DNA from: Sulfurovum sp.
Lineage (GTDB): Bacteria; Campylobacterota; Campylobacteria; Campylobacterales; Sulfurovaceae
Length of the DNA stretch: 39,079 bases
Assembly (NCBI GenBank): GCA_027019175.1
Contig: JALUXB010000065.1
Coordinates: 1-39,079, forward strand
Direction: 5' to 3'
Shown piece after piece: positions 12,580-17,599 of the stretch. Numbering within the stretch: position 1 is the first letter of the stretch; each line of letters begins with the position of its first letter. Made by a program: the position numbers and the translations under genes. The notes beneath the pieces were generated by a model. That model had not been told where the DNA came from. It saw only the letters and a program-made list of their open reading frames with translations, and made no database searches.

Positions 12580-12687
12580 CTACAATGGGTATATACGGTT
12601 AGACTGTATGGAAAAAGCCACACTTGTTGTGAAGCAAGGTCGGAAAGGTATATATCCTGTAGAGGATAGTATATCTGCCCATTACAG
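12580..12687 (+). ncRNA. Candidate structured leader RNA before the rhodanese pair
   Basis: About 108 bases in an otherwise AT-rich 277-bp gap fold by eye into a closed multi-stem structure. The outer stem pairs AATGGG (12584-12589) with CCCATT (12678-12683). Inside are a 7-bp stem ATACGGT/ACTGTAT (12593-12599 with 12603-12609), a short CACA/TGTG hairpin, and an ATATA..TCCT/AGGA..TATAT hairpin around 12651-12675. The purine-rich joins (GGAAAAAG, GAAGCAAGGTCGGAAAGG) look like conserved loop material. I compared it from memory with SRP RNA, c-di-GMP, purine, cobalamin and guanidine riboswitches and found no match. It may be a cis-regulatory element or a small RNA. Confidence 0.45.
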
Positions 12688-12714
12688 TGAAATACTGCAA
12701 TGTGTCGTTACCTC

Positions 12715-12731
12715 TTCATAACCTTTATGAA
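12715..12731 (+). promoter_or_regulatory. Inverted repeat in the rhodanese leader
   Basis: TTCATAA and TTATGAA are exact inverse copies separated by CCT, 30 bases before the start codon. It could be a small hairpin in the leader or an operator site. It is AT-rich and not followed by a T run, so it is not a terminator. Confidence 0.4.
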
Positions 12732-12760
12732 TGGCTTCTTAACCACATAAAGGAGAGAGC

Positions 12761-13378
12761 ATGAAACAGATAATGATAGCACTTGGTGCAGCTGCCTGTA
12801 TGCTTCAGGCGGCAACGGTGGAGATTACCGATGGTGTACCGTTTGTCGAAGTAAAAGGCGATGACGGAAAGACCTACAAGATCGAACGTGAACAGCGTCC
12901 GGGAAGCTACCTTACCAATACTTACGCATTGACCTCACGGCCTTCACCGCCGTTTTTTATTCAGCCCTTTGAAGCAGCACCCAAGGTAGAGACCTATGGT
13001 GAGCTTGAGTTGCTTGACTTTATCAAGAATCATCAAGGTGTATTTATTGATGCAAGACTGCCAAATTGGTACTACAAATCGGCCATTCCTACCGCAAGGA
13101 ATATCCCGTTTAAAATATTTTTGAACGATACACCGGAGCGCGAAGCGGTACTGAAATCGCTCGGTGTGGTGTACGACCGGGATGGGGAATATGACTTTAA
13201 AAATGCCAAAGAGCTTCTTTTTTACTGTAACGGTGCATGGTGCGGGCAGTCCCCTACGGCGATTCACGCACTGATAGAGATTGGCTATCCCCCAGAAAAA
13301 CTAAAGTATTATCGCGGCGGTATGCAGGCATGGCAATTGCTTGGACTGACAACGATCATACCAAAGAAGGAGCAGTAA
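12761..13378 (+). CDS. Exported rhodanese-like protein 1
   Basis: A 205-residue protein with a signal peptide (MKQIMIALGAAACMLQAAT) and a rhodanese-like fold in the C-terminal two thirds. FIDARLPNWYYKSAIPTARNIPF is the usual DxR..HIPGAxNIPF region. The active-site loop reads LLFYCNGAWCGQSPTAI, and YYRGGMQAWQLLGL is the C-terminal signature. The loop carries two cysteines in a CxxxWC arrangement instead of a single catalytic cysteine, which suggests a redox-active or disulfide role. It has GGAG eight bases before the ATG and sits one base from its paralogue. Its substrate is unknown; periplasmic sulfur transfer is an inference. Confidence 0.85.
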   Translation: MKQIMIALGAAACMLQAATVEITDGVPFVEVKGDDGKTYKIEREQRPGSYLTNTYALTSRPSPPFFIQPFEAAPKVETYGELELLDFIKNHQGVFIDARLPNWYYKSAIPTARNIPFKIFLNDTPEREAVLKSLGVVYDRDGEYDFKNAKELLFYCNGAWCGQSPTAIHALIEIGYPPEKLKYYRGGMQAWQLLGLTTIIPKKEQ

Positions 13379-13379
13379 G

Positions 13380-13991
13380 ATGAAACGGATTATTATTTTT
13401 CTATCGGTGGCGGCGTTTGCTGTTGCCGGACAATACGATAAAGTAAAGATCACCCCGGAAATTTCGTATATTTATGTATACCATAAAGGTAAGGCGGTTA
13501 AAATTCACCGTATTCAGGATACGAAGAACAAGCTAACCGGGGAGTATGCCAAGACCTATCATCCCGGACATCCCATTCAACCCATCAAAATCAATGATAA
13601 AGTACGCACAATCGGTGAAGTGGAACTGCTTAGCTTTTTGAAAAACAAGGTCAATAAAAAAGAGGGGCTTCTGGTTGATCTGCGCTCGAAAGCATATTAC
13701 AAAAAAGAGTCCATTCCCGGAGCGGTCAATATCCCATTCAAAGTAATCAACGACCATGATAAAATGGAAAAGATCATCCGTGTACTGGGAGCCAAACGGC
13801 TGGCAGACGGTACGCTTGATGCTTCCAAGGCGCGAACAGTAGCTTTCTACTGTCACGGTCTGTGGTGCAAGAAGTCTGCAGCGTTTATCAAAGCCTTTTT
13901 GAAACTGGGGTATCCCGCCGATAAAATTCTCTACTACCGCGGAGGATTCCAAATGTGGAAGATCCTCGGCTTTACAACGGTAACCAACTAA
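13380..13991 (+). CDS. Exported rhodanese-like protein 2
   Basis: A 203-residue paralogue of the preceding gene, with a signal peptide (MKRIIIFLSVAAFAVAG) and the same layout: LLVDLRSKAYYKKESIPGAVNIPF, then VAFYCHGLWCKKSAAFI and YYRGGFQMWKILGF. The CxGxWC loop is kept. The mid-domain insert between the two regions is also conserved, so the pair likely arose by tandem duplication. It starts one base after the first gene's stop and is followed 10 bases later by the membrane-anchored acidic protein, indicating an operon. Confidence 0.85.
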   Translation: MKRIIIFLSVAAFAVAGQYDKVKITPEISYIYVYHKGKAVKIHRIQDTKNKLTGEYAKTYHPGHPIQPIKINDKVRTIGEVELLSFLKNKVNKKEGLLVDLRSKAYYKKESIPGAVNIPFKVINDHDKMEKIIRVLGAKRLADGTLDASKARTVAFYCHGLWCKKSAAFIKAFLKLGYPADKILYYRGGFQMWKILGFTTVTN

Positions 13992-14001
13992 GGAGCCTGT
14001 G

Positions 14002-14448
14002 ATGAAAAAATTTTTAGACAACCTGATTGTATCGCTTGTGGTACTGCTTTTTCTACTCGTGATTGTACTTGTTGTCAAGTACAATATGATAAAGGAAGAT
14101 TATGCCGTTGTATCGGTAGTAAATCCGGAGCAGTCCCCTCCAGATAAAAAAGCACAGAAGAAAGCTTACCTGAAGAGTCTTGAATCCTATGGTGAAGACA
14201 AAGATGTGAAGGTTGATCCGACTAAAGAGAGTACAAAAAATACTGTCAAGGTTCAGAGTGAAGAGACTTCAAACGAGGTAGAAGCGGCATTGAATACAGA
14301 CGGTAAAAAAGCGTATGTGGAGAGTCTTGAGAACTATACGAAGCAAAAAGAAACAACCTCCCGAGAGAGCCTGGAAGATGTCAAACCCAAAACGGCGCAA
14401 AATGGTGATACCATTGGTGATGAGCTTGAAAATATTGTCGGAGAGTAG
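14002..14448 (+). CDS. Membrane-anchored acidic protein with internal repeat, unknown
   Basis: A 148-residue protein with one N-terminal membrane helix (LIVSLVVLLFLLVIVLVVKY) and a highly charged, probably disordered periplasmic tail. The tail contains a repeated motif: KAYLKSLESY near residues 54-63 and KAYVESLENY near 104-113, each followed by a charged linker. I do not recognise a family. I chose the ATG at 14002 because GGAG lies 7 bases upstream; a GTG three bases earlier is too close. It is the third gene of the rhodanese operon and may anchor or tether partner proteins, which is inference. It converges with trpS with 3 bp between stops. Confidence 0.7.
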   Translation: MKKFLDNLIVSLVVLLFLLVIVLVVKYNMIKEDYAVVSVVNPEQSPPDKKAQKKAYLKSLESYGEDKDVKVDPTKESTKNTVKVQSEETSNEVEAALNTDGKKAYVESLENYTKQKETTSRESLEDVKPKTAQNGDTIGDELENIVGE

Positions 14449-16192: not shown

Positions 16193-16280
16193 AATCCTCA
16201 ATCCTCAATCCTCAATCCTCAATCCTCAATCCTCAATCCTCAATCCTCAATCCTCAATCCTCAATCCTCAATCCTCAATC
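16193..16280. repeat. Heptamer array, 12 x AATCCTC, between the wbaP-like gene and wzz
   Basis: Twelve perfect units (16193-16276) plus a partial AATC. On the minus strand they read GAGGATT and start 2 bases after the WbaP-like stop codon. The gap of 142 bp contains little else: about 50 bases precede the wzz start. It is the longest array in the window and uses exactly the same unit as the one inside manB. Confidence 0.97.
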
Positions 16281-16282
16281 GA

Positions 16283-17599
16283 CTAATACGCTCCTTCACG
16301 TTTCAAAACGACTTTGACTGTTTTGAAAAGAATGACAATATCAAGCCAAAGTGACCAGTTAGAGACATACCACTTGTCCGTGGACACCCTGAAATCATAG
16401 TCTGTATCACTCCGGCCACTTACCTGCCAAAGACCTGTAATACCCGGCTTTACCATAAAGTAGTAGACAGCATCTTCTTTGTAATACTGGTCTATCTCCT
16501 GCTGTATGACCGGTCTTGGCCCGACAAAGTTCATTTCACCTTTGAGTACATTGAAAATCTGTGGCAGTTCATCGAGCGAGGTTTTACGTAAAAAAGAACC
16601 GATTTTTGTAACTCTGGGGTCATCTTTCAGTTTGAAATTTTCTTCCCACTCTTTACGTATGTCTGGGTCTGTCTCAAGCAGTTTTTCCAAACGTTCCTGT
16701 GCATCGGCATACATGCTTCTAAACTTGAGTGTCGGAATGGTTTTACCATGTTGTCCCACACGATTGTGCGTAAAAAATACGGGTCCTGGTGATTCGCGTT
16801 TAATGAGAATGGCAAAAATGCCAATGAGAGGCAGAATAACAGGTAAAAGTAGAATAGCCAGTATATAGTTGAAGCCTTGTTGAAATAGAAGACGATAAGT
16901 GCTTTTGAGCCGGTTCTTGAAAACAATAAGGTTGGTACGCGTATTGGAGAGTTGGTAAATGTGTGAATGGGTTAGGTCGTAATCATCGATCAAGGGAATG
17001 AAAACCACTTCATGCTTCTGCTGTATCTGTGTTTCAATAATCTTTTTGAGGCTGTTAGCATCACTTCCCTGTGAGTTGACAAACAGAATGGATGGAATTT
17101 CATGACTCCTTGGACGATTGTAGCCCAGATAAGGGTTACCGTAGATCTCTTTGATAAGAAAGGGGTCATCACCATATATAGCGGCTTTTTTTTGCCAAAT
17201 TCCCACTCTGTAGAGCAGTTTCTTGAGTATGTTCTTTTCCAGTGGGATGAAAAATGTCATAAGCACAAAGGAGATACCGATGACCAGACGGGAGTAGTCT
17301 GTCGCTGCTTTGGTCATGGCCAGATAGGCGAAGATAAAAATGGCAGAGAAGAGCAGCCCCTTGAATACCTGTCTGCTCTCATGCCAGAAGTCGTAACGAT
17401 AGGTATAAATGCCTTCATAGGCGAAGAGAACAATGGGAATCACATAGATGGGGTAGAGTGTCATATACTCCTGTAGAGTAACTGTGTGGGGACTGAGGTT
17501 TGGCAGTATATCTCTTAAAAGGTCGGCAAGGTAGACCGAAAATAGAATGAAAAGCAGGTCTGTGGCTATAAAGATGATTTTTGAAAAAAAATCTTTCAT
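16283..17599 (-). CDS. WbaP-like polyprenyl-phosphate sugar-1-phosphate transferase
   Basis: Transfers the first sugar-1-phosphate to undecaprenyl phosphate and starts the glycan. The 438-residue protein has an N-terminal region of about four to five membrane helices and a central domain. The conserved catalytic part contains KRESPGPVFFTHNRVGQHG, LKFRSMYADA, KTSLDELPQIFNVLKGEMNFVGPRP and PGITGLWQVSGR. It ends in KREGAY. The sugar (galactose or glucose phosphate) cannot be told from sequence. It overlaps the DUF4422 gene upstream by 4 bases. Its stop codon lies 2 bases from the 12-unit heptamer array. Confidence 0.93.
   Translation of the reverse strand: MKDFFSKIIFIATDLLFILFSVYLADLLRDILPNLSPHTVTLQEYMTLYPIYVIPIVLFAYEGIYTYRYDFWHESRQVFKGLLFSAIFIFAYLAMTKAATDYSRLVIGISFVLMTFFIPLEKNILKKLLYRVGIWQKKAAIYGDDPFLIKEIYGNPYLGYNRPRSHEIPSILFVNSQGSDANSLKKIIETQIQQKHEVVFIPLIDDYDLTHSHIYQLSNTRTNLIVFKNRLKSTYRLLFQQGFNYILAILLLPVILPLIGIFAILIKRESPGPVFFTHNRVGQHGKTIPTLKFRSMYADAQERLEKLLETDPDIRKEWEENFKLKDDPRVTKIGSFLRKTSLDELPQIFNVLKGEMNFVGPRPVIQQEIDQYYKEDAVYYFMVKPGITGLWQVSGRSDTDYDFRVSTDKWYVSNWSLWLDIVILFKTVKVVLKREGAY

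Follow-up and report, generated by a model that had tools for sequence, protein, structure and literature searches.

The closest described relatives of the RNA considered here are the Vc2 and Vc1 riboswitches of Vibrio cholerae (Rfam RF01051), which are built around a junction of helices P1, P2 and P3 and lie in the leaders of genes for exported proteins. In this class, G20 contacts one guanine of c-di-GMP, C92 pairs with the other guanine, and A47 is stacked between both (PMC4744006, PMC3764141). Also related are the c-di-GMP-I-GGC family (RF03167) and merRNA of Bdellovibrio, in which a c-di-GMP riboswitch forms part of a noncoding RNA (PMC3627812).

The window analyzed here is a stretch of 39,079 nucleotides from Sulfurovum sp. 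(GCA_027019175.1, contig JALUXB010000065.1). On its forward strand, to which all features of the leader and operon belong, a leader precedes an operon of rhodanese-like proteins. The leader has in common with Vc2 and Vc1 the P1/P2/P3 junction, the GNRA loop, residues G20, A47 and C92, the pairs C44-G83 and G14-C93, and its place ahead of genes for exported proteins. It is set apart by a C-G pair at 21-46 in place of G-C, a P3 without the canonical tetraloop receptor, a 5'-terminal hairpin in competition with P1, and a rhodanese operon as the target. Unlike merRNA, it is an mRNA leader. The class is already known, and with a probability of about 0.9 the leader is a further c-di-GMP riboswitch of class I, representing a Sulfurovum subtype; membership is well supported by sequence comparison and ligand binding is predicted.

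Identification of the aptamer

An Rfam scan of the whole window returned a sole gathering-level match, to the c-di-GMP-I riboswitch (RF01051) at 12607-12682, with 40.1 bits (E 1.4e-4) against a gathering score of 35 bits. The same aptamer was recovered in a search of the genome (E 1.9e-6), where it is the weakest of five above-threshold matches, which score 63.7, 62.8, 57.9, 49.8 and 40.1 bits. The other four lie on contigs C79, C62, C6 and C60 of the genome (G000; L001-L004); as read from the sequence, the genes after them include ones for a PAS-domain-like protein and for exported proteins. Furthermore, c-di-GMP-I matches above threshold occur in 60 of the 100 nearest genomes, with up to 21 per genome.

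A sequence-only reading had described 12580-12687 as a multi-stem RNA matching no known class, possibly a riboswitch for a sulfur-related ligand. The RNA itself is real, since the fold reaches -35 kcal/mol compared with -21.8 ± 3.1 for shuffled sequences (z -4.25; 0 of 200 shuffles) and the two internal aptamer hairpins and the 5' hairpin are supported comparatively. The riboswitch reading was also right, as indicated by the covariation among homologues and the match to an Rfam riboswitch family. It was wrong to call the RNA unmatched: RF01051 scores above gathering, and a known Rfam family was the outcome that the reading had itself set against this description.

The Rfam alignment places the equivalent of G20 at 12617, A47-A48-A49 at 12644-12646 and C92 and C93 at 12678-12679; the G, the AAA and the CC are invariant in all 16 homologous leaders described below. 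C22, A23 and A25 correspond to 12619, 12620 and 12622, and G42, C44 and G45 to 12639, 12641 and 12642. The interhelical pair C44-G83 is present (12641 C with 12669 G), as is G14-C93 at the top of P1 (12611 G with 12679 C). The positions matched are those given as conserved or as ligand contacts in published comparisons (PMC3764141, PMC4744006). In the P1-forced fold, the 5' strand of P1 (12603-12611, with G12611 equivalent to Vc2 G14) is paired to its 3' strand (12679-12688) with one bulged U at 12683. P2 (12618-12643) is made up of 12618-12619/12642-12643 and 12623-12628/12633-12638 and carries the GNRA loop GUGA (12629-12632), while the arms of P3 (12646-12676) are 12646-12658 and 12663-12676.

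The canonical 11-nt GAAA tetraloop receptor is absent from P3, and the receptor columns of RF01051 are unmatched in the window. Judged from the RF03167 consensus, which belongs to the same clan and also lacks the receptor, this element appears to be typical of the class but neither universal nor defining. Several homologues in the genus score higher with RF03167 than with RF01051, perhaps through a short P3. Membership of the window's leader in RF03167 was nevertheless rejected: the consensus has G47, the window has A47 (12644) like all 16 leaders, and its score is below the gathering score of 59, with a close relative (L038) scoring 43.2. Given the modest 40.1 bits, the P3 without the canonical receptor and the swapped pair 21-46, the affinity for the ligand could be low; as Vc1 illustrates, intact contacts do not guarantee that a GEMM RNA binds strongly in vitro (PMC4744006).

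Comparison of homologous leaders

Sequences upstream of the orthologous rhodanese gene were gathered both from genomes within the genus and from public contigs whose labels name Sulfurovum or relatives. The aptamer is present in 16 of these leaders, 15 of which bear the 5' hairpin. Covariation was scored on a trimmed alignment of the 15 hairpin-bearing Sulfurovum leaders. Pairing within the aptamer is preserved in 97.5% of cells, compared with at most 47% for slid structures, and two-sided changes occur at 12 of the 19 pairs, a count reached by 0 of 500 shuffles. Such compensatory changes had been named beforehand as support for a structured RNA. They affect all six pairs of the outer hairpin of P2. 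The inner pairs of P1 are intact in every leader having letters in those columns; pair 12610-12680 is G-C in the clade of the window and U-A in nine other leaders. The aptamer has been lost from several orthologous rhodanese operons (upstream regions L041, L042 and L057-L060) and is therefore dispensable in those lineages.

The promoter and the 5'-terminal hairpin

The -10 promoter box, TACAAT at 12581-12586, reads TAGAAT, TACAAT or TAAAAT in homologues. A gap of 6-8 nt separates it from the 5' hairpin in the 15 hairpin-bearing leaders, and it is also found in the sixteenth (L073). A simple scan for sigma-70 promoters detected no complete consensus, and the start of transcription, near 12593, is therefore inferred. 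A closing stem proposed earlier at 12584-12590/12677-12683 proved not to be conserved, with 58% of cells pairing among the 16 homologues compared with 51% after a slide of one column. The stem was rejected on its poor pairing and because its 5' arm overlaps the -10 box. An arm within that conserved box (TACAAT or TAGAAT) is probably outside the transcript, and the stem is most likely a chance coincidence of sequence.

The 5'-terminal hairpin occupies 12593-12609, with arms 12593-12598 and 12604-12609. In the 15 leaders 100% of its cells are paired, four of the six pairs vary through G-U, and the most frequent G-U pair is replaced by A-U or G-C at other loci. A hairpin fit over the wider loci included four switches without the hairpin, possibly inflating the two-sided changes, and that count was set aside. 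Nucleotides 12603-12609 belong both to the hairpin and to P1 (5' strand), an overlap seen in each of the 15 leaders; the two structures are therefore mutually exclusive.

The possibility was considered that the hairpin is a separate element, such as a DNA operator or a stabilizer of the 5' end, and not a competitor of P1. It is near-palindromic as DNA, and it is retained in the orthologues L041 and L042, where the aptamer is gone (no Rfam match), so the hairpin may also serve some function independent of the aptamer. However, it is located at the presumed start site, its 3' arm doubles as part of P1 in 15 of 15 leaders, it is also found ahead of the aptamer at other loci, and variation of its pairs through G-U suits an RNA rather than a DNA palindrome. 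A separate element is thus considered rather unlikely, and competition between the hairpin and P1 is retained in the model below.

Proposed control of the ribosome-binding site

Direct reading of the sequence downstream of the aptamer revealed an alternative hairpin, CATTACAGTGAAATACTGCAATG (12680-12702), that uses the 3' strand of P1 and may serve as its competitor. In L068 and L090 the core of this hairpin is CAGTG-AAA-CACTG, where a G-U pair has become G-C and pairing is kept. Farther downstream, the anti-Shine-Dalgarno strand CCTTTATG (12722-12729) is a perfect 8-nt complement of 12746-12753, within the stretch 12746-12755 that would be sequestered and that contains the Shine-Dalgarno hexamer AAGGAG, beginning at 12750/12751. 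Homologues have other anti-Shine-Dalgarno sequences (L070, L074, L079 and L082), for example CTTACTA in L074/L075 and CTTATTCT in L082.

Each leader was folded from its presumed start to the start codon with P1 either rewarded or forbidden through soft constraints. In these computations, made with programs that ignore the ligand and co-transcriptional folding, the Shine-Dalgarno hexamer was less accessible with P1 in all 16 leaders. As a control, the sequence lying between P1 and the hexamer was shuffled. The summed effect over the 16 leaders was 3.20, compared with 0.28 ± 0.67 for the shuffled sequences; with one leader taken from each of 11 clusters it was 2.28, compared with 0.28 ± 0.63 (0 of 100 shuffles). 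In the window's leader alone, accessibility fell from 0.20 to 0.11 with P1, and 28% of shuffles equaled or exceeded this change. Because the change in the window is small and not above its own shuffles, the OFF direction rests on the homologues. On balance, the modeling favors a translational OFF switch in which binding of c-di-GMP would close the ribosome-binding site.

In the proposed mechanism, transcription would begin near 12593 and the short 5' hairpin would fold first. When c-di-GMP enters the junction of P2 and P3, its guanines would touch G20 and C92, A47 would stack between the two guanines, and the ligand would lock P1 (12603-12611/12679-12688). Locked P1 would break the 5' hairpin and withdraw its own 3' strand from downstream pairing, whereupon the freed anti-Shine-Dalgarno strand (12722-12729) would cover the ribosome-binding site (12746-12755) and leave the rhodanese operon untranslated. 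Without ligand, the 5' hairpin would reform, the 3' strand of P1 would pair downstream, and the ribosome-binding site would open.

The same c-di-GMP-I riboswitch might instead be an ON switch, or might control transcription or the stability of the mRNA, for instance by Rho-dependent termination. The small change in the window's own accessibility leaves room for this reading, and other c-di-GMP-I switches work on transcription or at both levels (PMC11218506). However, the sign of the accessibility effect is uniform in 16 of 16 leaders, the shuffles were beaten in the set of 11 clusters, and no intrinsic terminator was found. An ON or transcriptional mode is possible but somewhat doubtful, and a translational OFF switch remains the preferred reading.

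The cassette at other loci

Elsewhere in the genus, the 5' hairpin and aptamer recur together. In relatives, a cassette of promoter, hairpin and aptamer lies upstream of thrC (Pfam PF14821) or of a gene for a beta-propeller protein; after it, a noncoding sequence of roughly 150 nt, shared between these unrelated genes, forms a long hairpin with the invariant loop GACATTCTTTT(C/T)CC. The RNAalifold consensus of the long hairpin has 34 pairs, 12 of them with two-sided changes; single members gave fold z values of -4.26 in one case and -1.89 in another. The signature of the long hairpin adjoins the cassette in all 13 genomes that have it. The arrangement was noted at L151:1604-1760, L159:1604-1760 and equivalent positions in L153-L158, L162, L164, L166-L168, L170 and L172. 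At these loci Rfam matched nothing except the aptamer, and a signature search found the long hairpin absent from the window's genome.

The long hairpin looks like a candidate c-di-GMP-gated small RNA. The loci upstream of thrC would then resemble merRNA as noncoding RNAs containing a c-di-GMP riboswitch, with the difference that the candidate has a conserved long hairpin and none was noticed for merRNA. More tentatively, the promoter, 5' hairpin and C21-G46 aptamer might constitute a portable Sulfurovum cassette, serving as an mRNA switch here and gating a trans-acting sRNA by c-di-GMP elsewhere, with competition between hairpin and P1 as a form of switching upstream of the aptamer.

Ligand specificity

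The only departure from the consensus near the pocket is the C-G pair at 21-46, where the consensus has G-C. Every one of the 15 aligned leaders has the swap, as do the other switches of the genus whose alignments were inspected. Riboswitches of the cGAMP type (c-AMP-GMP, GEMM-Ib) are marked by an A at position 20. Given the swapped pair and the unusual P3, it was considered whether the fold recognizes something other than c-di-GMP, for instance 3',3'-cGAMP, G21 and C46 being among the energy-contributing residues in a simulation study (PMC9049102). However, G20, A47 and C92 are unaltered, A20 was not seen (12617 is G), and the genome encodes many GGDEF proteins. A change of ligand is therefore regarded as very improbable. 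Enzymes for c-di-GMP are present in the genome, with 13 GGDEF and 8 EAL domains that pass the Pfam cut-offs.

The rhodanese operon

The first gene of the operon (12761-13378) encodes an exported rhodanese-like protein (Pfam PF00581, E 1.4e-11) with an N-terminal signal-like stretch recognized by eye, and the second (13380-13991) another exported rhodanese-like protein (PF00581, E 2.7e-14). A possible third gene (13999-14448) encodes a small protein with an N-terminal hydrophobic helix and no Pfam or NCBIfam family. The sequence-only reading had placed the RNA 75 bases ahead of two sulfur-transfer-like proteins; 12580-12687 ends 73 nt before the ATG at 12761. Both rhodanese-like proteins have the extended active loop CNGxWCxQS. 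The G-x-W-C motif is common to them and to homologues in other classes, with W-C invariant; the loop's first cysteine is less constant, being replaced by aspartate in some homologues. A structure search with the two proteins gave weak matches only. Elsewhere in the window, a gene for a 23S rRNA intervening-sequence protein (PF05635; 11285-11653) lies between rho and murI, and a short tandem repeat (16200-16286, translated as repeated LNPQSSI) lies beside polysaccharide-cluster genes.

In Sulfurovum indicum grown on S0, two adjacent rhodanese-like genes were up 2.77-2.82-fold, and biofilm genes were also up (PMC10045233). The gene number appears to fit the orthologue at 474-475 kb on contig C1 of G016 (L042). 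Because the identity of this orthologue is itself deduced and no recognizable aptamer is present there, these data are a mere pointer to function. The earlier proposal of a new sulfur-responsive riboswitch, which drew on the location ahead of rhodanese-like genes and could appeal to their rise on S0, is scarcely credible in view of the RF01051 match, the intact c-di-GMP contacts, and the genome's other switches of this family, which precede genes of no evident sulfur role. The signal sensed is very probably c-di-GMP, though the gene context may still concern sulfur.

Implications

A literature search of partial coverage found no paper on c-di-GMP riboswitches in Sulfurovum, and on that basis neither the rhodanese context of the switch nor its 5' hairpin design appears to have been reported. 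If the proposed reading is true, the exported rhodanese-like proteins of a sulfur-oxidizing vent genus would be under the control of a second messenger of surface life. As biofilm genes and two adjacent rhodanese-like genes of S. indicum are raised on solid sulfur (PMC10045233), a direct RNA link from c-di-GMP to the rhodanese operon would be testable.
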